This document shows positions 2,215 to 32,958 of a stretch of DNA of 34,325 bases, piece by piece. A program made the position numbers and the translations under genes. The notes beneath the pieces are model-generated. The model searched no databases, was not told the DNA's origin, and saw only the letters and a list, made by a program, of their open reading frames with translations. The number at the start of each line of letters is the position of its first letter. The stretch's first letter is position 1. Source of the DNA: Pantanalinema sp. (GTDB taxonomy: Bacteria > Cyanobacteriota > Sericytochromatia > S15B-MN24 > UBA4093); the NCBI GenBank assembly GCA_036704125.1, contig DATNQI010000052.1, forward strand, positions 1 through 34,325, written 5' to 3'.

Positions 2215-3633
2215 ATGCGGTTACACTTCCTGGGCGCCGCCCAAACCGTCACGGGATCCGCCTACCTGCTTGAAACCAACAAGCAGCGGTTCCTGATCGA
2301 CGCGGGCCTCTCGCAAGGCAGCTCCCACTCGCACGAGCTCAACGCCCGGGCCCTGCCCTTCCACCCCCGCCACCTGGACGGCATCATCCTGACGCACGCC
2401 CACGCGGACCACAGCGGCCTCATCCCTCGCCTGGTCGCAGAGGGCTTCCGCGGCCCCATCTACGCGACGCCGCCGACCATCGACCTCTGCCGCATCATCC
2501 TGCCCGACGCCGGCACGATCCAGGAAGAGGACGCCAGGTCCGAGAACAAGTGGCGCCGAAAGCACGGCAAGAGCCTGCTCACCCCTCTCTACACCAAGCA
2601 GCAGGCCGAGCATGCCCTCAAGTACTTCGAGCGCCTGCCCTACCTGAAGCGCACCACCCTGGGACGCAACATCCGGCTGACCCTGCACGACGCGGGCCAC
2701 ATCCTGGGCTCGTCGATCGTCGAGCTCGAGGTCGAGGGGTCGCGCCTGGTCTTCACCGGGGACCTGGGCAACGTCAACAACCAGCTGCTGCGCAACCCCG
2801 CCACCCTTGCGCATGCCGACTACCTGATCACCGAGTCGACCTACGGCAATCGCTCGCACGGCCGCATCAGCGATCGCGTCGCCAAGCTCAAGGAGGTCAT
2901 CCTCGGCGCCCGGGGGCCCGTCATCGTCCCTGCGTTCGCGGTCGAGCGCACGCAGGAGCTGCTCTTTGACCTGCACCGCCTCATCGCCCAGGGCGAGATC
3001 CCGCCCTTGCCCATCTACGTGGACAGCCCCATGGCCGTCTCGGCCACGGCCCTCTTCGAGAAGCACCCCAACTGCCTGGCACCCGAGATCCAGGCCATGT
3101 TCCGCGCGCGCTCGCCCTTCGAGATGCCGAACATCCACTTCATCCGCGAGGCGGAGGCCTCGGCCCGCCTCAACAAGATGAACGAGCCCTCCATCATCAT
3201 CTCGGCGAGCGGCATGTGTGAGGGGGGCCGCATCCGGCACCACCTCTACCACCACCTGGCCCAGGAGGAGACGACGGTGCTCTTCGTCGGTTACCAGGCC
3301 GAGCGAACCCTCGGCCGGCGTATCCGGGACGGCGCCCCGCACGTCACCCTCTTCAACGAGACGATCCCGGTGCGCGCCCGGGTGGTCGCGATTGACGCCT
3401 ACTCGGCTCACGCCGACGCCAACGGCCTGATGGACTGGATCGGCGCCTTCCAGGAGGCTCCGGCCCTGACCTTCATCACCCACGGGGAGCTGGCCGCTTC
3501 CGAAGCGCTGGCCGAGCGCCTGGCCGAGGAGCACGGCCTGATCTCCGTCATCCCCGCCCCGGGCGAGGCCTACGAGCTGATGCCCGCCTCCTCGAGCCTC
3601 TCGACCCTGCGCCTGCGCGAGGAAACCGCCTAG
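2215..3633 (+). CDS. Metallo-beta-lactamase/beta-CASP ribonuclease (CPSF-like)
   Basis: Predicted zinc-dependent RNase of the beta-CASP group, which trims or cuts RNA in the cytoplasm. The 472-aa protein has the metal motif HAHADH at residues 61-66, a second-metal region with DAGHILGSS and FTGDLG, then the beta-CASP domain (TESTYGN, and SASGMCEGGRIRHHL, typical of CPSF73-like bacterial members), and a C-terminal RMMBL segment with SAHADANGL. The length fits the bacterial family. The longer frame from 2125 lacks support; ATG 2215 has AGGAGG just before it. The 178 bp upstream hold no other gene that I can see. Confidence 0.9.
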   Translation: MRLHFLGAAQTVTGSAYLLETNKQRFLIDAGLSQGSSHSHELNARALPFHPRHLDGIILTHAHADHSGLIPRLVAEGFRGPIYATPPTIDLCRIILPDAGTIQEEDARSENKWRRKHGKSLLTPLYTKQQAEHALKYFERLPYLKRTTLGRNIRLTLHDAGHILGSSIVELEVEGSRLVFTGDLGNVNNQLLRNPATLAHADYLITESTYGNRSHGRISDRVAKLKEVILGARGPVIVPAFAVERTQELLFDLHRLIAQGEIPPLPIYVDSPMAVSATALFEKHPNCLAPEIQAMFRARSPFEMPNIHFIREAEASARLNKMNEPSIIISASGMCEGGRIRHHLYHHLAQEETTVLFVGYQAERTLGRRIRDGAPHVTLFNETIPVRARVVAIDAYSAHADANGLMDWIGAFQEAPALTFITHGELAASEALAERLAEEHGLISVIPAPGEAYELMPASSSLSTLRLREETA

Positions 3634-3656
3634 CCCCGATGTGTCAGGCTCCTCTG

Positions 3657-3665
3657 TGCTACGAT
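3657..3665 (+). promoter_or_regulatory. Extended -10 promoter of the SpoIIE-phosphatase cluster
   Basis: TGCTACGAT, identical to the element at 261, lies 24 bp after the RNase stop codon and about 22 bp before the TTG start at 3687, with GGAGGA between. The distance gives a short leader. The -35 region is poor. Confidence 0.55.
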
Positions 3666-3686
3666 AGGGGCCGGAGGAGCCTTAGA

Positions 3687-5300
3687 TTGCCGAAGCAGAA
3701 ATCCCTCCTGCGACCGAGCTTGCAGACGCGCCTCACCGTGGTCTTCCTCACGATGACGAGCATCCTGCTCGCCGCGTCCATCGGGATCTTCTACAACCGG
3801 GCGAGCCACGTCTTCCGCCAAGAGCTCCGCGGCCGCCTGATGTCACTGGCGAGCACGGTGGCCGTCCAGATCGATGCTCCCGACCACACCCGCATCGGCC
3901 AAGAGGGCGACCCGACCTACCAAAAGGTACGGGAGCTCCTCCTGCGCGTCATGAGCGTCAACCCGAACGTCCGCTACATCTACTCCATGAAGGTCGACGG
4001 CAAGGGAACCTGGCGCTTCGTGGTGGACTCGACCGCTCCGGAAGACGAAGCCCACTCCGACTTCGGCGAGCCCTACACCGGTACGGGCACCGAGAGCATG
4101 TTCGCCGCCGCCGTGGCTCCTTCGGCCGATCAAGAGTTCACCGTCGACCAGTACGGCACCTGGCTCTCGGGCTTCGCCCCCATCCGCGACGCGAACGGCA
4201 AAGCCGTCGCCATCCTCGGCGTGGACATGAGTGCCACCGAGGTGCTCAACGAAGAGCGCAAGCTCGTCTGGATCGCGCTCGTCATCCTGCTCGCGGGCCT
4301 CGCCTTCGCGCTGGGGATCAGCGTCTGGCTCGCCCGCATCCTCTCCAAGCCCATCTCTCAGCTGGCCGAGGGTACCCGCAAGGTCTCAGAAGGGGACCTT
4401 ACGATCCGCGTCCCGGCCGCACGCAGCGACGAACTGGGCGATCTCGCCCGCTCCTTCAACGCCATGACCCAGGCGATCGCCCAGCACCGCGACGAGCTCA
4501 AGGAAAACGAGCGAATGATCCAGGAGCTCGCCACCGCCCGCAAGATCCAGCAGGCCATGCTCCCCACCGAGGCCCCCAGCGACGGGGCCCTCAACATCGA
4601 CTTCTACCTCGAGACCTCCACCGAGGTCGGAGGCGACTACTTCGACTTCCTCCCCGTCGAAAAGAACAAGCTCGCCCTGGTCATCGGGGACGTCACCGGC
4701 CACGGAGTGCCCGCCGCCCTCCTCATGGCCGTCATCAAGAGCTGCCTCCACACCCAGGTCCTCACCGACTTCCGCGTCCCCAACGTCATGGGCATCGCCA
4801 ACAACATCCTCCACCAGGGCAGCTTCGAGCGCCGCTTCATGACCTTCTTCTACTCGCTCCTCGACACCGAGACCGGCCGACTCGCCTACGCCAACGCCGG
4901 TCACCCCTACCCCTTCCACTACCGCAGCGCCCAGCGCACCGTCGAGATGCTCGAGATGGCCTCCTATCCGCTGGGGGTGCGCGCAAGCATGCCCATCCAG
5001 GAGCAAGAGGTCACCCTCGACCCCGGCGACGTACTCGTCTTCTACTCCGACGGCATCATCGAGGCCAAGAACGCTCACGGCGAGGAGTTCGGCTTCGAGC
5101 GCATGGAGAAGCTCATCCTCGACCACGGCGATCTCAGCGCCGGTGCCCTCAAGGAAAAGCTGCTCGCCTCCTGGCGCAAGTACGTCTACGACGGCACGCA
5201 GCCTCTCGACTACCAGGCCGTCAAGGCCGACCGCGCCGACGACGACATCACCATCGTAGTCGTCAAGTACGCCCCCGCAATCGCCTCACTGGAAATCTAA
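3687..5300 (+). CDS. Membrane sensor PP2C (SpoIIE/RsbU-type) serine phosphatase, paralog 1
   Basis: Predicted inner-membrane receptor whose cytoplasmic phosphatase would dephosphorylate a protein, in this family usually an anti-sigma-factor antagonist. Order (537 aa): TM helix about 15-38, periplasmic Cache-like sensor to about 190 ending AILGVDMSATEVL, TM helix about 193-214, HAMP linker, short coiled segment, PP2C domain from about 310. Metal-site motifs are GGDYFDF, GDVTGHGVPAALLM and FYSDGIIEA. The start is TTG 3687 with GGAGGA before it; this gives an N-terminus matching both neighbours (LLRPSLQTRL), while the longer frame from 3639 would begin before the promoter. First of three tandem paralogs; 16 bp separate it from the next. 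No kinase or STAS partner gene is in the window. Confidence 0.9.
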   Translation: MPKQKSLLRPSLQTRLTVVFLTMTSILLAASIGIFYNRASHVFRQELRGRLMSLASTVAVQIDAPDHTRIGQEGDPTYQKVRELLLRVMSVNPNVRYIYSMKVDGKGTWRFVVDSTAPEDEAHSDFGEPYTGTGTESMFAAAVAPSADQEFTVDQYGTWLSGFAPIRDANGKAVAILGVDMSATEVLNEERKLVWIALVILLAGLAFALGISVWLARILSKPISQLAEGTRKVSEGDLTIRVPAARSDELGDLARSFNAMTQAIAQHRDELKENERMIQELATARKIQQAMLPTEAPSDGALNIDFYLETSTEVGGDYFDFLPVEKNKLALVIGDVTGHGVPAALLMAVIKSCLHTQVLTDFRVPNVMGIANNILHQGSFERRFMTFFYSLLDTETGRLAYANAGHPYPFHYRSAQRTVEMLEMASYPLGVRASMPIQEQEVTLDPGDVLVFYSDGIIEAKNAHGEEFGFERMEKLILDHGDLSAGALKEKLLASWRKYVYDGTQPLDYQAVKADRADDDITIVVVKYAPAIASLEI

Positions 5301-5316
5301 CCCCCCAAGGAGCCCC

Positions 5317-6921
5317 ATGTCCCGGCCTACCCTGCTGCGCCCCAGTCTGCAGACCCGCCTCGCCCTCATCTTCCTCGCGATGACCGCCACTCTGCTGGCG
5401 GGGACCCTCGGAATCTTCTACGCCCAGACAAGCAACGTCTTCCGCCAGCAGCTCCGTGAGCAGCTCAAGGCGCTCGCCGGTACCGCCGCGCTCATGGTCG
5501 ATGTCGACGCGCACCAGCGCGCCCGATCCGAGGGCGATCCCTTCTACCAGCGCTTCCATGGGCTCTTGCGCCGGATGAAGGAAGCCAATCCTGGCATCGG
5601 CTACATCTACACCATGCGCCAGGATGCGAGCGGAAGGTGGCACTACCTCATCGATTCGGCAAAGCCTGGTGAGCCCGGTCACTCGGCCTTCGACCAGCCC
5701 TACGACGGCACCGGCTATCGGACCATGGACCGCGCCCTCACGCACCCCGCCGCCGATCGCAAGTTCTCCACCGACACCTTCGGCACCTGGCTATCGGGCT
5801 TCGCCCCCATCCGCGACGCGAGCGGCAAGACCGTCGCCATCGTGGGCGTCGACATGAGCGCCGCAGACGTCCTGCACGAAGAGCGCCGCCTGCTCGAAAC
5901 CGCGCTTGCCATCTTCATTGCCGGCCTGGCCTTCGCGCTGGGGACCAGCGTCTGGCTCGCCCGCATCCTCTCCAAGCCCATCGCGCAGCTGGCCGAAGGC
6001 ACCCGCAAGGTCTCCGAGGGCGACCTCTCGATCCGCGTCCCGGCCGCCCGCAGCGACGAGCTGGGCGATCTCGCCCGCTCCTTCAACGCCATGACCCAGG
6101 CGATCGAGACCCACCGCGACGAGCTCAAGGAGAGCGAGCGCATGACCCAGGAACTCGCCACCGCCCGCAAGATCCAGCAGGCCATGCTCCCCGCCGAGGC
6201 CCCCAGCGACGAGGCCGTCAACATCGACTTCTACCTGGAGACCTCCACCGAGGTCGGGGGCGACTACTTCGACTTCCTGCCCCTCGGCGACAACAAGCTC
6301 GCCCTGGTCATCGGTGACGTCACCGGCCACGGCGTGCCTGCCGCCCTGCTCATGGCCGTCATCAAGAGCTGCCTCCACACCCAGGTCCTGACCGACTTCA
6401 GGGTCCCCAACGTCATGGGCATCGCCAACAGCATCCTCCACCAGAGCAGCTTCGAGCGCCGCTTCATGACCTTCTTTTACTCCCTTCTCGACACCGAGAC
6501 CGGCCGCCTCGCCTACGCCAACGCCGGCCACCCCTACCCCTTCCACTACCGCAGCGCCCAGCGCACGGTCGAGATGCTCGAGATGGCCTCCTACCCTCTC
6601 GGCGTCCGGCCCACCCTGCGCGTGAAGGAGCAGGAGGTCACCCTCGAGCCCGGCGACGTGCTCGTTTTCTACTCCGACGGCATCATCGAGGCCCAGAACG
6701 CCCGCGGCGAGGAGTTCGGCTTCGAGCGAATGGAGAAGCTCATCCTCGAGAACGGCCACCTCAGCGCCGAAATCCTCAAGGAAAGGCTGCTCGAGACGTG
6801 GCAGCACCACGTCTACGACGGCACGCGCCCCCTCGACTACCATGCCATCAAGGCTGCTCAGGCCGACGACGACGTCACCATCGTGGTCGTCAAGTACGCG
6901 CCGCTCGCCCCCCTGTGCTAG
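5317..6921 (+). CDS. Membrane sensor PP2C (SpoIIE/RsbU-type) serine phosphatase, paralog 2
   Basis: Same architecture as the preceding gene (534 aa): TM, Cache-like periplasmic sensor (YIYTMRQDASGRWHYLIDS region), TM, HAMP, PP2C. The HAMP and phosphatase halves are nearly the same as in the flanking paralogs, while the sensor half differs at many positions, so the three probably sense different signals or ligands but act on the same target. ATG 5317 has AAGGAG 5 bp upstream. Its stop codon TAG lies inside the extended -10 of the third paralog, so that gene can also be transcribed separately. Confidence 0.9.
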   Translation: MSRPTLLRPSLQTRLALIFLAMTATLLAGTLGIFYAQTSNVFRQQLREQLKALAGTAALMVDVDAHQRARSEGDPFYQRFHGLLRRMKEANPGIGYIYTMRQDASGRWHYLIDSAKPGEPGHSAFDQPYDGTGYRTMDRALTHPAADRKFSTDTFGTWLSGFAPIRDASGKTVAIVGVDMSAADVLHEERRLLETALAIFIAGLAFALGTSVWLARILSKPIAQLAEGTRKVSEGDLSIRVPAARSDELGDLARSFNAMTQAIETHRDELKESERMTQELATARKIQQAMLPAEAPSDEAVNIDFYLETSTEVGGDYFDFLPLGDNKLALVIGDVTGHGVPAALLMAVIKSCLHTQVLTDFRVPNVMGIANSILHQSSFERRFMTFFYSLLDTETGRLAYANAGHPYPFHYRSAQRTVEMLEMASYPLGVRPTLRVKEQEVTLEPGDVLVFYSDGIIEAQNARGEEFGFERMEKLILENGHLSAEILKERLLETWQHHVYDGTRPLDYHAIKAAQADDDVTIVVVKYAPLAPLC

Positions 6922-6924
6922 GAT
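6916..6924 (+). promoter_or_regulatory. Extended -10 promoter before phosphatase paralog 3
   Basis: TGCTAGGAT overlaps the stop codon of paralog 2 and resembles the element before paralog 1; the surrounding leader GGCCGGAGGA is also shared, as if the promoter and leader had been duplicated with the gene. Confidence 0.5.
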
Positions 6925-6942
6925 GAGGGCCGGAGGAAAGTC

Positions 6943-8553
6943 ATGAAGCGGATTTCCTTGCTGCGTCCCAGTCTCCAGACCCGCCTCGCCCTCGTCTTCC
7001 TGGGCACGACCGCCCTGCTGATGGGAGGCACCCTCGGGATCTTCTACGCGCAGGCGAGCAACGTCCTACGCCAGCAGCTCCGCGCGGAGCTCAGGGCCCT
7101 CGCCGGCACCGCCGCCAACCTGGTCGACGTCGACGCGCACCAGCGCGTCAAGGCCGAGGGCGACCCTGCCTACCAGCACTTCCATCATTTCTTCCGCCGG
7201 ATCACCGAGGCCAACCCGGGCATCGGGACCATGTACACCATGCGACAGGACAAGAACGGCACCTGGCGCTTCATGGTCGACTCGGCCAGCCCCGGCGATC
7301 CCAGCCGGGCCTCGTTCAACGAGGCGTACACCGGCACCGGCAGCGACACCATGGACCGCGCGCTGGCACGTCCATCCGCCGACCGCACGTTCTCCACCGA
7401 TGCCTTCGGCACCTGGCTCTCGGGCTTCGCCCCCCTCCGCGACGCGAGCGGCAAGACCGTCGCCATCGTGGGGGTGGACATGAGCGCCGCCGATGTGCTC
7501 AACGAAGAGCGCAAGCTCGTCTGGATCGCGCTGGTCATCCTGCTCGTGGGCCTGGCCTTCGCGCTGGGCATCAGCGCCTGGCTCGCCCGCATCCTGACCA
7601 GGCCCATCGCGCAGCTGGCCGAGGGCACCCGACAGGTCTCCGAGGGGGACCTCACGATCCGCGTCCCGGCCACCCGCAGCGACGAGCTGGGGGATCTCGC
7701 CCGCTCCTTCAACGCCATGACCCAGGCGATCGCCCGCCACCGCGACGAGCTCAAGGAAAACGAGCGAATGATCCAGGAGCTCGCCACCGCCCGCAAGATC
7801 CAGCAGGCCATGCTTCCCGCCGAGGCCCCCAGCGACGAGGCCCTCAACATCGACTTCTACCTGGAGACCTCCACCGAGGTCGGAGGAGACTACTTCGACT
7901 TCCTGAGCGTCGAGCAGAACAAGCTCGCGCTGGTCATCGGCGACGTGACCGGCCACGGCGTGCCCGCCGCCCTGCTCATGGCCGTCATCAAGAGCTGCCT
8001 CCACACCCAGGTCCTGACCGACTTCAGGGTCCCCAACGTCATGGGCATCGCCAACAGCATCCTCCACCAGAGCAGCTTCGAGCGCCGCTTCATGACCTTC
8101 TTCTACTCGCTCCTCGACACCGAGACCGGCCGCCTCGCCTACGCCAACGCCGGCCACCCCTACCCCTTCCTCTACCGCAGCGCCGAGCGCACGGTCGAGA
8201 TGCTCGAGATGGCCTCCTACCCCCTCGGCGTCCGGCCCACCCTGCGCGTGAAGGAGCAGGAGGTCACCCTCGAGCCCGGCGACGTGCTCGTCTTCTACTC
8301 CGACGGCATCATCGAGGCCCAGAACGCCCACGGCGAGGAGTTCGGCTTCGAGCGAATGGAGAGGCTCATCCAGCTCCACGGCCACCTCAGCGCCGAGGCC
8401 CTCAAGGAGAAGCTGCTCAAGACGTGGCAGCAGCACGTCTACGAGGGCACCCGCCCCCTCGACTTCCAGGCGATCAAATCGGACCGGGCGGACGACGACA
8501 TCACCATCGTGGTCGTCAAGTACGCGCCGGCCCGGAGGTTCGTGGAGGCCTAG
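6943..8553 (+). CDS. Membrane sensor PP2C (SpoIIE/RsbU-type) serine phosphatase, paralog 3
   Basis: Third copy (536 aa) with TM, Cache-like sensor, TM, HAMP and PP2C with intact metal motifs (GGDYFDF, GDVTGHG, FYSDGIIEA). The stretch from the second TM to the C-terminus is nearly identical to paralogs 1 and 2; the sensor has its own sequence (MYTMRQDKNGTWRFMVDS region). ATG 6943 has GGAGGAA upstream. It ends 3 bp from the convergent zinc-ribbon gene, with no hairpin between them. Confidence 0.9.
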   Translation: MKRISLLRPSLQTRLALVFLGTTALLMGGTLGIFYAQASNVLRQQLRAELRALAGTAANLVDVDAHQRVKAEGDPAYQHFHHFFRRITEANPGIGTMYTMRQDKNGTWRFMVDSASPGDPSRASFNEAYTGTGSDTMDRALARPSADRTFSTDAFGTWLSGFAPLRDASGKTVAIVGVDMSAADVLNEERKLVWIALVILLVGLAFALGISAWLARILTRPIAQLAEGTRQVSEGDLTIRVPATRSDELGDLARSFNAMTQAIARHRDELKENERMIQELATARKIQQAMLPAEAPSDEALNIDFYLETSTEVGGDYFDFLSVEQNKLALVIGDVTGHGVPAALLMAVIKSCLHTQVLTDFRVPNVMGIANSILHQSSFERRFMTFFYSLLDTETGRLAYANAGHPYPFLYRSAERTVEMLEMASYPLGVRPTLRVKEQEVTLEPGDVLVFYSDGIIEAQNAHGEEFGFERMERLIQLHGHLSAEALKEKLLKTWQQHVYEGTRPLDFQAIKSDRADDDITIVVVKYAPARRFVEA

Positions 8554-17908: not shown

Positions 17909-17933
17909 ATCACCTCCCCCCCCCGCACGCCTC

Positions 17934-17987
17934 CTCCCCGCCCCCCGGTGGGGCGGGGTCGGGGGTGGGGGGATTCAATCAAGTTCC
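17934..17987 (-). repeat. G-rich hairpin repeat, copy 1 (between moxR and DUF58 genes)
   Basis: On the + strand: CCCCGCCCC, 5-nt loop, GGGGCGGGG (hairpin 17936-17958), then G5-T-G6 and ATTCAATC AAGTTCC. The four + strand G runs with 1-2 nt loops fit a G-quadruplex. It begins 1 bp after the moxR stop codon, read on the - strand. Confidence 0.9.
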
Positions 17988-17988
17988 G

Positions 17989-18906
17989 CTATACCGGAAC
18001 CGGCACCCCCGCCAGCAGCTCGTCCAGGAGCGCCAGCCGCCCCTGCCGCGAGGGCCTGCCCGCGAGCACCAGCCGGTGCCCCAGCACCGCGCGCGAGAGC
18101 ACGCGCAGATCATCCGGCGTCACGTAAGCCCGGCCGTCGAGGAAGGCATGCGCCTGCGCCAGCCGCTGCCAGACCAGGTTGCCGCGCGGGCTCAGGCCGA
18201 GCAGGATCTGCGGGTGGTTCCGCGTCTCGTTCGCCACCCGCACCATGTAATCCCGCAGGCTCGCATCCACCTTCACGGCGTGCACCTCCGAGCGCCAGGC
18301 CAGCAGCTCCTCCGGCGTCACCACCGGCGCAAGCTCCGCCTCCTCGGCGCGGGCCCAGTGGCCCGAGAGCAGCTCGCGCTCCGCCTCGGGCGACGGGTAG
18401 CCCAGCGACAGCATCACGGCGAAGCGATCGAGCTGCGCCTCCGGCAAGGGGAAGGTGCCGTGGAACTCGACCGGGTTCTGGGTCGCAATGACGAAGAAGG
18501 GACGGGGCAGGGGGTGGGACTCGCCGTCCACCGTCACCCTTCCCTCCTCCATCGCCTCGAGCAGGCTCGCCTGGGCGCGGGGCGAGGCCCGGTTGATCTC
18601 GTCGGCCAAGAGGACGTGCGCGAAGGCCGGGCCCGGCACGAAGCGAAAGGAGCCCGCCTGCGGGTTGAAGACGTTGGTCCCCGTGACGTCCGAGGGCATC
18701 AGATCGGACGAGAACTGCACCCGCCGGAACACGCCCGCGATCGACTGGGCCAGGGTCTTGGCGAGCAGGGTCTTCCCCACGCCCGGCACGTCCTCCAGGA
18801 GCACGTGCCCTCCGGCCAGGAGCGACGTCACCACCAGCTCGAGGGCCCGGTCCTGCCCGACCACGGCCTGCCGCATGTTCTCGATGAGGATCCTGGGATG
18901 GGCCAC
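17989..18906 (-). CDS. MoxR-family AAA+ ATPase
   Basis: Cytoplasmic chaperone-like ATPase, 305 aa. Walker A is GVGKT at residues 42-46, Walker B LLADEINRA at 99-107; the sensor-1 region ATQNPVEFHGTFPLPEAQLDRF is typical of MoxR. It is first in the operon with DUF58 and TgpA-like genes, whose products it probably helps to mature. The G-rich repeat copies 1 and 2 lie directly after and before it. The start at 18906 has only a weak ribosome site (GGAGGCGCG). Confidence 0.93.
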   Translation of the reverse strand: MAHPRILIENMRQAVVGQDRALELVVTSLLAGGHVLLEDVPGVGKTLLAKTLAQSIAGVFRRVQFSSDLMPSDVTGTNVFNPQAGSFRFVPGPAFAHVLLADEINRASPRAQASLLEAMEEGRVTVDGESHPLPRPFFVIATQNPVEFHGTFPLPEAQLDRFAVMLSLGYPSPEAERELLSGHWARAEEAELAPVVTPEELLAWRSEVHAVKVDASLRDYMVRVANETRNHPQILLGLSPRGNLVWQRLAQAHAFLDGRAYVTPDDLRVLSRAVLGHRLVLAGRPSRQGRLALLDELLAGVPVPV

Positions 18907-18925
18907 TCGCGCCTCCGGTAGGGAT

Positions 18926-18969
18926 CCCCCGCCCCCTGGTGGGGCGGGGCTAGGGGTGGGGGGATAAAA

Positions 18970-18978
<9 letters not shown>
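18926..18978 (-). repeat. G-rich hairpin repeat, copy 2 (overlaps the end of trpG)
   Basis: Hairpin CCCCGCCCC/GGGGCGGGG at 18927-18949, then G-rich tract and ATAAAATC AAGTTCC. The stop codon of the TrpG-like gene (18970-18972, - strand) and its last two codons lie inside the repeat, so the repeat supplies the C-terminus. Confidence 0.88.
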
Positions 18979-27314: not shown

Positions 27315-27403
27315 TACGCGACCACGGTCGGGACGAAGGTGTCGCCCAACTTCTCGAAGCCGCTCATCCCGTGCAAGACGTTGTAACGCTTGAAGATCGC
27401 CTC
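27315..27403 (-). pseudogene. Remnant of a pfkB 3' end (direct repeat 1)
   Basis: 89 bp that match the 3' end of the intact kinase gene (29167-29255) with 8 differences by eye (about 91%). Read on the - strand it still encodes FEKLGDTFVPTVVA and a stop codon (TAA in place of TAG). Similarity stops abruptly at 27403. Most changes are silent, so it looks like a diverged copy and not a recent exact duplication. Confidence 0.85.
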
Positions 27404-27502: not shown

Positions 27503-28105
27503 GTGAGCCTATCCGCTCAGACGATTGAAACCCTGCTGGAAGCGCTAAGCGAGCAACTCGCCGCAGCAGATGCCTGCCCCGTCGACCTCGTGGTTTGCGG
27601 GGGCACCGCGATGAACTTCCTCGGTTTCGCCGCGCGCCCCACCAAGGACGTCGACGTCGTCGCGCTCTTGAACCTGCCCGGCAAGGGAGAGCCAGAGTTC
27701 CTCATGGCCAAGCCCCTGCCCGCATATGTGCTGAAGGCCAGCGCTCTGGTCGCGAAGGATTTCGGCATCTCGCCGGACTGGCTCAACGATGGACCGGCCG
27801 ATCTCTTGCGCTGGGGGCTGCCCGAGGGCGCTGAGTCTCGCCTGATAGAGCGACGGTTCGGAGCATGTCTGACCGTCCATTTCCTGGCGAGACCGGATCT
27901 CATCTGTCTTAAGCTTTACGCCTACGCAGATAGCCAGGCGCCTCGACACCGCCAAGATCTCCTCGCCCTCGAGCCGACCCACGAAGAACTGGAAACGGCC
28001 GCCAACTGGGTCAGAACCCACGACGATTCAGACGCCTTCCTGATCGATATTCGCGGTGCCCTCGCTACCCTCGGAGCCCCTGATGTCGCTGCACGCATCG
28101 GCTAA
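27503..28105 (+). CDS. Nucleotidyltransferase of the AbiEii/DUF6036-like type (putative toxin)
   Basis: 200 aa. The nucleotidyltransferase core is CGGTAMNFLGFAARPTKDVD, with the GG-T motif at residues 33-35 and the metal aspartates Asp49 and Asp51; RPDLICLKLYAYADS and RHRQDLLAL follow, as in small MNT/AbiEii-like proteins. Such enzymes often act as toxins of type IV systems by adding nucleotides to tRNA; the same fold also occurs in resistance enzymes. GTG 27503 has AAGGGGGG upstream. It overlaps the winged-helix gene by 23 bp, so the two are one operon. Confidence 0.78.
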   Translation: MSLSAQTIETLLEALSEQLAAADACPVDLVVCGGTAMNFLGFAARPTKDVDVVALLNLPGKGEPEFLMAKPLPAYVLKASALVAKDFGISPDWLNDGPADLLRWGLPEGAESRLIERRFGACLTVHFLARPDLICLKLYAYADSQAPRHRQDLLALEPTHEELETAANWVRTHDDSDAFLIDIRGALATLGAPDVAARIG

Positions 28106-29111
28106 GGCGTTCCGAGAGGAGGTCCTTTCGTTCATCTGGCGGCAGTGGGGCCAGATGGGGCTCTCCGCGCCCTTCGCACACGAAGACGTCTGGTGCCAGG
28201 ATCCGGAGGCCCTCCTGGTATTCAGCCTCGAAGCCGCTCGCCGGGATCCTCGGATGTTCGACGAAATCCTCGACTGGCTCACCGCCAATGGCCGCAGCTT
28301 GCTGCGTCAGCGCGTCGAGAACCTGCTCGCGCGCGATCCGGATGCCCCCCGCCCCGTCATCGAAGCGGCGCTCGCGCGCACCTTGCCAGCTATTTCGAGG
28401 CGATCGCGCGAGACGCAAAGCACGCTGGACAGCACCGGGCCGACGCCCCTGTTCGAAGGGGAGCTGACCGAAGCGGCCGCCTTCGGCGAGAGCGAGCCGA
28501 TCTTCTTGCGCTTCGGGCTCGTCCGTCCGCCCTTTCGCCGCAGCCGCAAGAGTCGCGAACTCGATCTGCTTGCCCCTTTCAACATGCCGTTCCGGCTTCG
28601 TGCGATTTTCGGACCGGGCAGCCGCTCGGAGGCGATACGATACCTGCTGTTGCGCGGGGATCAGGGCGGGACCACGGTTGAAATCGCCGAGGCGATCGCA
28701 TTGAGCCGCCCCAATGTGCAGCAAGCGCTTGAAGGTCTGAGCGCTGCCGGGATCTGCATCAAGCACCCCCGAAACAAAAAGGAGCTCATGTGGAGACTGG
28801 ATGTGGAAAGATGGCAGACCTGGCTCGAACTCGATGAATCACGGATTCCTCGCTGGATCGACTGGCCTGCCGCGTTCGCGGGGCTGGCCACGATCTGGCG
28901 CTGGATCCACGCGCCGCAGCGCGAGAGCGAATCCCCTTATATCCGCTCGTCGAGAGCACGACAGCTAATGGAACAGGCGGCTCCGCTCATCGCCAACGCT
29001 GGGATAAAGTGGCACCCTGCAGATCCGCAACGTTATCCGGGCGAAGGCTACCTGCCCGCCTTCGAACACGATCTCGCCACGCTGGGCACGGCCTTGAACC
29101 CAAGAACTTAA
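28083..29111 (+). CDS. Winged-helix protein paired with the nucleotidyltransferase (putative antitoxin/regulator)
   Basis: 342 aa from ATG 28083 (GGAG 8 bp upstream). I do not recognise a named family. A helical N-terminus leads to a basic middle part (FRRSRKSRELDLL) and a winged helix-turn-helix at about 180-235 (EAIRYLLLRGDQGGTTVEIAEAIALSRPNVQQALEGLSAAGI, quoted in parts: TTVEIAEAIALS and RPNVQQALEGLSAAGI). Its gene overlaps the nucleotidyltransferase gene, and the operator palindromes lie just upstream, so I infer that it represses the operon and may neutralise the enzyme. In the AbiE systems the regulator comes first; here it comes second. Confidence 0.65.
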   Translation: MSLHASAKAFREEVLSFIWRQWGQMGLSAPFAHEDVWCQDPEALLVFSLEAARRDPRMFDEILDWLTANGRSLLRQRVENLLARDPDAPRPVIEAALARTLPAISRRSRETQSTLDSTGPTPLFEGELTEAAAFGESEPIFLRFGLVRPPFRRSRKSRELDLLAPFNMPFRLRAIFGPGSRSEAIRYLLLRGDQGGTTVEIAEAIALSRPNVQQALEGLSAAGICIKHPRNKKELMWRLDVERWQTWLELDESRIPRWIDWPAAFAGLATIWRWIHAPQRESESPYIRSSRARQLMEQAAPLIANAGIKWHPADPQRYPGEGYLPAFEHDLATLGTALNPRT

Positions 29112-29165: not shown

Positions 29166-30110
29166 CTACGCGACCACGGTCGGGACGAAGGTGTCGCCCA
29201 GCTTCTCGAAGCCGCTCATCTTGCGCAGGACGTTGTAGCGCTTGAGGATCTCCTCGTGGGTCACGGAGCGCAGCCTGTCGCAGCTGAACTCCTCGACGTT
29301 GTACGACGCCATGACGCTGCCCAGGATGATGGCGCGGCGCAGGTTCTCGTTCGAGAGGTCGTCGGTGTAGGCCAGGTACCCGAGGAAGCCGCCCGCGAAG
29401 CTGTCGCCGGCGCCGGTGGGGTCCGAGACCTCCTCGATGGGGTAGGTGGGCGAGATGAAGATGTGGCCGTTGTCCTGGACGAGCATGGCGCCATCCTCGC
29501 CCTTCTTGATGATGACGGCCTTGGGGCCGAGCTCGAGGACGCGCTTGGCAGCCTTGAGGAGGTTGTTGGTCTCGCAGAGCTGGCGAGCCTCGCCCTCGTT
29601 GAGCAGGGCGATGTCGACCCGCTTGAGGGTCTCGACCAGCGCCGCGCGCTTGCTTGTGATCCAGAAGTTCATGGTGTCGCACACCACGAGCTTGGGGCGC
29701 TCCATCTGGTCGAGCACCAGGCTCTGGAGCTCGGGGTCGATGTTGCCCAAAAAGAGGTACTCGCTCTGCGCGTAGTTCTGGGGGAGCTTGGGCTGGAAGT
29801 CGGCGAAGACGTTGAGGTCCGTCATGAGGGTGTGGGCCGTGTTGAGGTCCTCGTCGTAGAAGCCCTTCCAGCGGAAGGTCTTGCCCTCGACCCGCTGCAG
29901 GCCCTCGACGTTGACGCGGCGGCTGCGGAAGAGCTCGACGTGCTCCTCGGGGAAGTCGGTGCCGACGACGCCCACGAGGTTGACGGGCGAGAAGAAGCTC
30001 GCCGACATGGAGGCGTGGGTGGCGGAACCGCCGAGCGCCTCGATCACTTCTCCACGGGGGGTCCGGACGGAATCCAGCGCGACCGATCCGACGATGGTGA
30101 TGTTACTCAT
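29166..30110 (-). CDS. PfkB-family carbohydrate kinase
   Basis: Ribokinase-fold enzyme, 314 aa, that phosphorylates a sugar or nucleoside with ATP; substrate unknown. The N-terminal substrate region is GGSATHASMSASFF, and the C-terminal signature DPTGAGDSFAGGFLGYLAY carries the catalytic Asp and the anion hole (GAGD). NEGEAR marks the metal-binding NxxE-like site. The start at 30110 is ATG with AGAAGGG upstream and an extended -10 further up. Its last 89 bp are duplicated at 27315-27403. Confidence 0.92.
   Translation of the reverse strand: MSNITIVGSVALDSVRTPRGEVIEALGGSATHASMSASFFSPVNLVGVVGTDFPEEHVELFRSRRVNVEGLQRVEGKTFRWKGFYDEDLNTAHTLMTDLNVFADFQPKLPQNYAQSEYLFLGNIDPELQSLVLDQMERPKLVVCDTMNFWITSKRAALVETLKRVDIALLNEGEARQLCETNNLLKAAKRVLELGPKAVIIKKGEDGAMLVQDNGHIFISPTYPIEEVSDPTGAGDSFAGGFLGYLAYTDDLSNENLRRAIILGSVMASYNVEEFSCDRLRSVTHEEILKRYNVLRKMSGFEKLGDTFVPTVVA
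29167..29255. repeat. Direct repeat 2: pfkB 3' end matching 27315-27403
   Basis: The intact gene's last 89 bp, in the same orientation as the remnant at 27315. The two copies bracket the nucleotidyltransferase/winged-helix module and nothing else. Confidence 0.85.
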
Positions 30111-31531: not shown

Positions 31532-31656
31532 TGGGTGAGCGCAAAGTAGGGCGCCGACACTCGCTTTCCCTCTCCCCGCCCCCGGGTGGGGCGGGGCTGG
31601 GGGTGGGGGGATTCAATCGCCGTAGGCGCTGCCTTCTTCGAGGAGGGCGTGAGGGC
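31532..31656 (-). repeat. G-rich hairpin repeat, copy 5 (long form, hicAB-flanking repeat L1)
   Basis: The common core (hairpin 31574-31596, then G5-T-G6 ATTCAATC) is extended on both sides by sequence shared with L2 at 32466-32588 (GCGCAAAGTAGGGCGCC on one side, CGCCGTAGGCG on the other). Read on the - strand the outer part encodes ALLEEGSAYGD and a TGA stop just before the core. The rest of the 311-bp gap (31479-31789) shows nothing recognisable. Confidence 0.88.
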
Positions 31657-31789
31657 GGGTTTGTGGTGAGGATCTAGCGACCGTCGAGGCCAATACCCAT
31701 GGCGACGGACAGGCTCGGATCACCGAAGAGCTGAACACTGAGGGGTCCACTATACCGACAAGCGGATCCGTTGGCTGTTGCTGCTGAGG

Positions 31790-32185
31790 CTATGCCTTGC
31801 GTAGCTCCGCTCGAGCGGCATCCGCGAGGAAGGCCGAGCGGGTCTTGCCGAGGCGCGCGGCGGCCTCGTCGATCTGGATAACCAGGCGCTTATCCAGCGA
31901 GATGTTGAGCCGCACGGGCTCAGACTTCTCGATCTCAATCCTCACCAGGAAGGGGATCTGCTTGGCGTACTCGGGGTTGTTCGCGATCGCCTCGATCTCA
32001 GACGGGGCAGGGATGGGGTCGCCATCCTCCATCATCCCCTCGAGGTGCAGGCGCAGGGCCTGGTGAGCATTCTGGATCGCATCGTCCGGGGTTTTCCCTC
32101 CGGACGTGCAGCCAACAAGGTCGGGAAACCAGACACCCCAGGTATCCAGCGGCGTGCGTTCGAGGAGCGCAACGTAAACAGCCAT
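31790..32185 (-). CDS. hicB: HicB-family antitoxin
   Basis: 131 aa. The N-terminal HicB fold (WGVWFPDLVGCTSGGKTPDDAI, here cited as VWFPDLVGC and GKTPDDAIQNA) binds the HicA toxin; the C-terminal ribbon-helix-helix (PVRLNISLDKRLVIQIDEAA) binds DNA and represses the operon. ATG 32185 has AAGGAGG upstream and lies 11 bp after hicA. Its complete length and motifs suggest a working antitoxin. Confidence 0.92.
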   Translation of the reverse strand: MAVYVALLERTPLDTWGVWFPDLVGCTSGGKTPDDAIQNAHQALRLHLEGMMEDGDPIPAPSEIEAIANNPEYAKQIPFLVRIEIEKSEPVRLNISLDKRLVIQIDEAAARLGKTRSAFLADAARAELRKA

Positions 32186-32196
32186 GGGCGGCCTCC

Positions 32197-32391
32197 TTAC
32201 TTCCAACCGGCCTGTTTGAAGATGCTGTCCAGCGTGCTCCCGTAGAGGTCTTTCTTGGGATGCTGGACGGTCACCTTGCCGGGCCTGGTGTCGTGCTTGT
32301 ACTGGTGGTGATCGCCACGGACCTTGGACAGGTACCAGCCGTCAGCCTCAAGGCGCTGGATGATTTCACGGCTGCTGAAGACCTTGCCCAT
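32197..32391 (-). CDS. hicA: HicA-family toxin (mRNA interferase)
   Basis: 64 aa. Double-stranded-RNA-binding-like fold that cleaves mRNA during translation. The active-site histidine region is VRGDHHQYKH, followed by GKVTVQHPKKDL and the C-terminal LDSIFKQAG, all standard for HicA. ATG 32391 has GAGGAGG upstream. First gene of the operon, followed by hicB. Confidence 0.93.
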   Translation of the reverse strand: MGKVFSSREIIQRLEADGWYLSKVRGDHHQYKHDTRPGKVTVQHPKKDLYGSTLDSIFKQAGWK

Positions 32392-32421
32392 CGATGCGAC
32401 CTCCTCGCAGTTGACGGGCTA

Positions 32422-32450
32422 ACCATACACAAAAAATACACAAAATGCAA
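32422..32450 (-). promoter_or_regulatory. hicAB promoter with 11-bp-spaced direct repeats
   Basis: On the - strand: -35 TTGCAT, 17-bp spacer, -10 TATGGT. On the + strand ATACACAAAA occurs twice, at 32425 and 32436, one helical turn apart within the spacer, a likely HicB operator. Confidence 0.72.
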
Positions 32451-32465
32451 GCGCGAACCAGGGAG

Positions 32466-32588
32466 TGGGTGGGCGCAAAGTAGGGCGCCAAGGCTCGCTT
32501 GCCCTCTCCCCGCCCCCGGGTGGGTCGGGGCTGGGGGTGTGGGGATTCAATCGCCGTAGGCGGTGCCTTCTTTGAGGAACGCCAGGGC
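32466..32588 (-). repeat. G-rich hairpin repeat, copy 6 (long form, hicAB-flanking repeat L2)
   Basis: Same layout as L1, with a few substitutions that break the hairpin and one G run (GGGTCGGGG and GGGGGTGTGGGG). Read on the - strand the outer part encodes AFLKEGTAYGD and a TGA stop, matching L1 at the protein level. Confidence 0.85.
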
Positions 32589-32958
32589 TTCGCCGGCGAT
32601 CACCCCCCTGTAGTCCCCCCATTACGCCTTCGGCTTAGATGCGCTGCGGCGCGAGCGAGGAGGGACAAGGGTCGGCTCCCCTGTTTTCGTTCACCCATGG
32701 CCCCCTCTCCCGGGGGGAGCGCGAAGGGCCGGCGGAGAAAATCAACCCAGAGCGGCGGAGGGGTAGGGCCTGAAAAGCCTCGGATTGAAGGCACGCCAGG
32801 GCCTCATATGGTACGATCGGACGCAATAGCGTTACCAGCGCCACAGCGCCCCGGATAACCCCCGGAAGCCTATATTTACCGGGGATTCAGGGGTTTATCG
32901 CAAAAGGCGGCGCGGGTATGCAAACGTCAGCACCTTGCTGAGAGCCCGGCCGAGTCGT
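32589..32958 (+). other. Gene-free stretch and leader before the polysaccharide export gene
   Basis: No convincing gene. On the - strand a short remnant of coding-like sequence (GDYRGVIAGEA) continues the L2 tail until an in-frame stop. A hairpin-prone CCCCCTCTCCCGGGGGGAG lies near 32702-32720. An extended -10 (see 32809) is followed by about 140 bp of leader with CCCCGG/CCGGGG pairing around 32852-32883; I could not match it to a known riboswitch. Confidence 0.5.
32809..32817 (+). promoter_or_regulatory. Extended -10 promoter for the export operon
   Basis: TGGTACGAT, related to the TGCTACGAT elements at 261 and 3657. No -35 at proper spacing. Confidence 0.5.

Follow-up and report, generated by a model that had tools for sequence, protein, structure and literature searches.

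Direct repeats around a hicAB pair and the possible entry of toxin-antitoxin cassettes at homologous flanks in Sericytochromatia

How chromosomal toxin-antitoxin (TA) modules move without a transposase or an integrase is an open question, and one locus of Pantanalinema sp. poses it in compact form: a hicAB pair lies between two long direct repeats. We therefore asked what the repeats are, whether TA loci elsewhere in the class Sericytochromatia are bracketed in the same manner, and which route of insertion could leave such an arrangement. The window, namely the whole stretch of DNA analysed, is a contig of 34,325 nucleotides (G000:C52) from a 3.5-Mb, 102-contig genome, and the features of the locus are as follows.

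31532-31656 (core 31532-31644), no strand assigned: L1, left direct-repeat copy, 92% identical to L2 without gaps
32466-32588 (core 32466-32578), no strand assigned: L2, right direct-repeat copy, matching L1
31790-32206, minus strand: hicB antitoxin (HicB_lk_antitox with C-terminal RHH; PF15919 E 3.8e-32, PF01402 E 6.4e-5)
32197-32391, minus strand: hicA toxin (PF07927 E 6.6e-19)
31572-31618, plus strand: arm of REP1, a GC-rich dispersed palindromic repeat, within L1 (97.9% to the REP1 sequence)
32506-32552, plus strand: REP1 arm within L2 (93.6% to the REP1 sequence)
32575-32620, plus strand: REP2, a second dispersed repeat, abutting the end of the L2 homology (95.7%)

The repeats on either side of hicAB

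Aligned without gaps, 31532-31644 and 32466-32578 match over 113 nt at 92% identity; the copies share one orientation at a spacing of 934 bp, and their longest identical run is 23 bp. The gapped local alignment spans 31532-31656 and 32466-32588 and agrees to the base, orientation included, with the repeats of the preliminary description of this DNA. Its score of 90.5 far exceeds the maximum of 13 reached when this arrangement of flanks is slid to other positions of the stretch, so the match is not due to chance. Only hicB and hicA were recognised between L1 and L2, confirming that the repeats bracket hicAB alone, and neither an integrase nor an integrase remnant was found there. Adjacent, on the same strand and carrying the HicA and HicB domains, the two genes constitute a predicted type II toxin-antitoxin pair; the hicB reading frame begins with TTG, but translation more probably starts from an ATG at 32185. 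Among plasmid and phage homologues, considered as close mobile relatives of this hicB, all are below 60% identity.

The genome search revealed that L is a composite. L1 matched 56 places when partial matches were counted, 54 of them only within or near the centre of L (about positions 40-88), and REP1 itself occurs at more than 50 places, often as a doublet in which some 80 bp separate two arms of opposite orientation, whereas L1 and L2 each hold a single arm. The full 113-bp unit, in contrast, is found at L1 and L2 only, and therefore L1 and L2 are a duplicated intergenic segment, i.e., a segmental duplication carrying one REP arm. Two independent REP1 insertions were rejected as the source of the pair, since the portion of L not covered by REP1, about 65 bp, is unique to these two copies. 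L had no match to a known RNA element in Rfam, and we also rejected it as a strongly structured unit because it folds not clearly better than shuffled sequences (z -0.4 to -1.5).

REP and REPIN elements are palindromes that occur as inverted doublets (PMC3116915), and REP1 is like them in being GC-rich, palindromic, dispersed, present in high copy and often arranged in inverted doublets (PMC3116915). It differs in that this genome has no cognate RAYT and in that L is a larger unit with a single arm. Namely, the REP-associated transposase (Y1_Tnp, PF01797) had no match in the genome, which is 96% complete, and the Y1_Tnp genes of relatives have neither REP1 nor REP2 nearby; RAYT mobilisation of the two repeats was rejected on these grounds. 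REP2 is unrelated to REP1; the sister genus (G001) has about 50 matches to it and the Pantanalinema genome a handful. REP1 is spread over many contigs of the genome (e.g., L008, L011 and L020), and within the window two direct-orientation REP1 arms bracket an AAA-ATPase gene, MoxR-like by sequence, at 17931-18978. Another part of the window, 3639-8553, holds a tandem array of three genes, each coding for about 540 aa and sharing about 80% DNA identity, which resemble HAMP/SpoIIE-type phosphatases by sequence.

We searched the relatives for the locus in its other possible states. None was found with hicAB at the homologous place, and an empty site with a single L and no hicAB, which the preliminary description had proposed to look for, was likewise absent from a class that is sparsely sampled, with one other genome (G001) in the family. 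The homologous yjbH-like/SLBB neighbourhood of G002 has the two genes adjacent, with neither hicAB nor L and with the yjbH-like gene oppositely oriented, and G001 has a different upstream gene.

Toxin-antitoxin loci between direct repeats across the class

The same window holds a second TA-like module between direct repeats, as had been proposed from the sequence alone, and here the repeat is the end of a gene:

27315-27403, minus strand: orphan copy of the pfkB 3' end, 89 nt, 91% identical to 29167-29255, frame kept (EAIFKRYNVLHGMSGFEKLGDTFVPTVVA)
29167-29255, minus strand: the matching repeat, at the 3' end of the complete pfkB gene (29166-30110, PF00294)
27503-28105, plus strand: AbiEii-like nucleotidyltransferase, first gene of the module (PF08843 E 2.5e-7; weak PADLOC AbiEii)
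28056-29111, plus strand: partner of the nucleotidyltransferase, with no Pfam match and only weak similarity to HTH proteins

The idea of a duplicated gene tail is thus correct for the pfkB pair, and the repeat around the AbiEii-like genes is consistent with the bracketing of TA loci described below. As a candidate for the AbiE type, which combines the AbiEii nucleotidyltransferase with a wHTH antitoxin, AbiEi, the module shows a weak AbiEii match and a partner that matches no Pfam family. Homologues of the partner, 45-46% identical, lie directly downstream of nucleotidyltransferase-like genes in G001 and G007; the two genes are thus kept as a pair in three genomes, and the G001 and G007 homologues have no bracket.

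To place these two modules in a wider context, we searched 18 Sericytochromatia genomes for HicA loci and examined each of the 16 obtained for direct repeats on both sides. Six of them are bracketed, by repeats of 26, 70, 86, 113, 139 and 145 bp, and all three HicA loci of G010 are among the bracketed ones. Brackets of at least 60 bits occur at 5/16 loci versus 12/1118 control positions (Fisher p 1.6e-6), the controls being anchors placed each 500 bp, with the same search radius, along 40 stretches of four genomes. The comparison is conservative, because some G010 and G013 control stretches had been chosen for their TA genes, and the 12 control matches comprise tandem paralogues, one intragenic coding repeat, one pair of REP elements and, again, the TA loci themselves. 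Bracketing of HicA loci in Sericytochromatia is therefore non-random. HicB homologues in G010 and G001 supplied the first bracketed cases, one hicAB pair with a vapC 3' end on each side (86 bp, 87%) and another flanked by 26-bp repeats; the brackets of HicA loci in other genomes are of unrelated sequence and contain neither REP1 nor REP2. ParE loci are strongly bracketed in 2 cases out of 30 (p 0.05), and a 390-kb sample of the Pantanalinema genome beyond the window contained no bracket of this kind. Elsewhere, a stretch of G001 (L249, G001:C38:85028-88165) carries two antitoxin/ParE-like modules, each after a long repeat (397 bp at 95% along its best part), and so forms a further TA array with repeats as separators.

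At six places, namely L208, L212, L221, L269, L250 and the pfkB pair of the window, the repeat corresponds to the 3' end of the gene next to it. The duplicated tails belong to vapC, a dinG-like helicase, a VgrG3-like gene, a hexapeptide acyltransferase, an NHL-repeat gene and pfkB; these coding repeats end at, within a few bases of, or beyond the stop codon, and the intact gene retains one copy. L269 (G010:C299, 1889-4741) forms an array in which the acyltransferase tail appears three times (1889-2038, 2894-3052 and 4583-4727), with higBA separating the first tail from the second, and hicAB together with a Gp49/HTH pair separating the second from the third, and both orphan tails meet the gene sequence at one and the same point. 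Orphan tails stay in frame, and 22 of 51 changed codons are synonymous (hand-pooled) against an assumed neutral 27% (p 0.009), a small test in which pfkB taken alone shows no third-position excess. The kept frame and the synonymous excess suggest, on that assumed neutral rate, that orphan tails derive from different alleles that have come together and not from the decay of copies.

Among hicAB loci from many bacteria, 6/80 are bracketed versus 6/826 shifted controls (p 2e-4), and three of the six are from Sericytochromatia. Outside the class, 3/77 hicAB loci are bracketed, two with integrase traces: L110 has an integrase beside the bracket, and at L111 a tRNA-Glu 3' end and an orphan duplicate of it enclose hicAB together with a weak Phage_integrase fragment. 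The latter stretch (L111:3631-4786, Rhodospirillaceae) looks like an integrative element eroded nearly down to its addiction module.

The class is thinly sampled and the genomes concerned are drafts, MAGs among them. At 87-94% identity the repeats cannot have been generated by the assembler from a single sequence, and strain mixtures may lie behind some of them.

Insertion at homologous flanks and its alternatives

The pattern suggests that TA pairs enter, and perhaps leave, genomes via recombination between duplicated flanks. We give an even chance to the reading that small TA cassettes became inserted where short homologous flanks recombined. In general form, homologous flanks on incoming TA DNA and on resident DNA would yield the order target-TA-target. 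For hicAB, an acquired cassette of about 0.8 kb would have entered a site that already held one L copy, either by a Campbell-type crossover between the resident L and an incoming circle or fragment on which an L allele accompanied hicAB, or by an insertion homologous at one side only. The outcome would be hicAB between two slightly different L alleles, and the reverse crossover of L1 with L2 would remove hicAB and leave one L. The possibility that recombination between the repeats could delete or gain hicAB, raised in the preliminary description, can be fairly drawn from the non-random bracketing across the class, and such a deletion would be rare because the longest identical run is 23 bp. 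The same route may have placed the AbiEii-like pair within its pfkB bracket and, in other Sericytochromatia loci, may have set hicAB, higBA and parE-relB modules between copies of a gene's 3' end. In these gene-tail cases the upstream gene stays whole, and insertion should therefore be tolerated. The alternation of tails and TA modules at L269 is what serial insertion predicts.

Several observations argue against insertion at homologous flanks. An identity of 23 bp is short for RecA today; L1 and L2 are intergenic repeat DNA, unlike the gene-tail cases; and the relatives offered no single-L site. In addition, the AbiEii-like homologues of G001 and G007 are unbracketed, few ParE loci have strong brackets, and the synonymous excess comes from small numbers and an assumed neutral expectation. 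A broader generalisation, which we regard as doubtful, is that Sericytochromatia experience recurrent, integrase-less entry of TA cassettes beside genes, with the 3' end duplicated each time and the cassettes stacking into tail-separated arrays, hicAB with L1 and L2 being an intergenic instance.

A lost integrase fits the data nearly as well as recombination at homologous flanks. L1, L2 and the gene-tail repeats would then be attL and attR of eroded tyrosine- or serine-integrase elements that had inserted at gene 3' ends, which we consider possible although on balance unlikely. When an element integrates at an att site, the typical result is a second copy of a gene's 3' end while the gene itself is made whole again; the two integrase-associated brackets outside the class agree with this reading, and the single junction point shared by the L269 orphan tails is what a fixed element end would give. 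However, the small Sericytochromatia brackets examined (0.6-1.8 kb) hold no integrase, the targets differ nearly every time and would each need a different integrase, and L is not a gene end.

The bracket may instead be a coincidence, a segmental duplication or REP-mediated rearrangement having produced L1 and L2 without any connection to hicAB; we think this improbable, and slightly more so than a lost integrase. L does hold a REP1 arm, REP1 is very common in this genome, and its arms bracket the AAA-ATPase gene as well, but the part of L beyond REP1 is limited to L1 and L2, and the HicA loci of other genomes are bracketed by unrelated sequences lacking both REP1 and REP2.

Least probable by far, and already largely refuted, is the origin proposed in the preliminary description, namely that L1 and L2 are the last codons of a once-duplicated gene together with its G-rich 3' element. 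The minus strands can indeed be read as LLEEGSAYGD and FLKEGTAYGD, each followed by a stop, so that the shared frame stands, and genuine gene-tail brackets surround other TA modules; a gene tail is nevertheless unsupported, and we rejected it. The peptide pattern, even with the stop not required, matches L1 and L2 alone across the 18 genomes of the class; the preliminary description had held that its reading should fall if no protein carried this C-terminus, and none in these genomes does. Upstream of the tail the frame is open for 24 codons at L2 and 58 at L1, the latter a mere read-through past the hicB stop, and there is no gene at either. All three differences in the shared tail codons (CTC/TTC, GAA/AAA and AGC/ACC) change the amino acid and none is at the third position. 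From about 32575 L2 is REP2, to which part of the tail frame thus belongs, and the G-rich part belongs to the genome-wide REP1 family rather than to a gene's 3' element. Short peptides readable in REP-like DNA should not pass as gene tails.

Comparison with known systems

In this lineage a trace of insertion can be read at about one third of the HicA loci, and at several of these the neighbour's 3' end is present twice. This makes the route testable: it predicts one-repeat empty sites, excision circles and the direction of insertion. Duplicated gene 3' ends around TA modules were not found described in a literature search of limited coverage, and the following known arrangements come close.

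Cis-mobilizable elements and eroded islands hold accessory DNA between attL and attR without an integrase of their own. The brackets described here are alike in that short, integrase-less accessory DNA lies between direct repeats of gene or tRNA 3' ends, and differ in that the cargo is one or two TA operons, the targets vary and L is intergenic repeat DNA. Namely, of the hallmarks of an integrative element, L1 and L2 show the repeats at both ends but neither an integrase inside nor a gene or tRNA 3' end as target, whereas pfkB and other modules do have a gene 3' end as target.

Integron cassettes with TA genes are small TA units between direct repeats of about 120 bp and can form arrays. The hicAB locus is similar in being a small TA unit between direct repeats of about 120 bp, and differs in that its flanks, like those of the other modules, are gene tails or REP DNA. 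An attC cassette was rejected: L1 contains no GTT or AAC at all, so it has no RYYYAAC or GTTRRRY core sites.

A Mycoplasma TA pair differs from hicAB in consisting of an AAA-ATPase and a subtilisin-like protease, and the relevant part of that report gives neither duplicated gene 3' ends nor an estimate of frequency (PMC8562856). It is nonetheless like hicAB in that a TA pair there is flanked by two direct repeats, which that part of the report takes as scars of recombination (PMC8562856).
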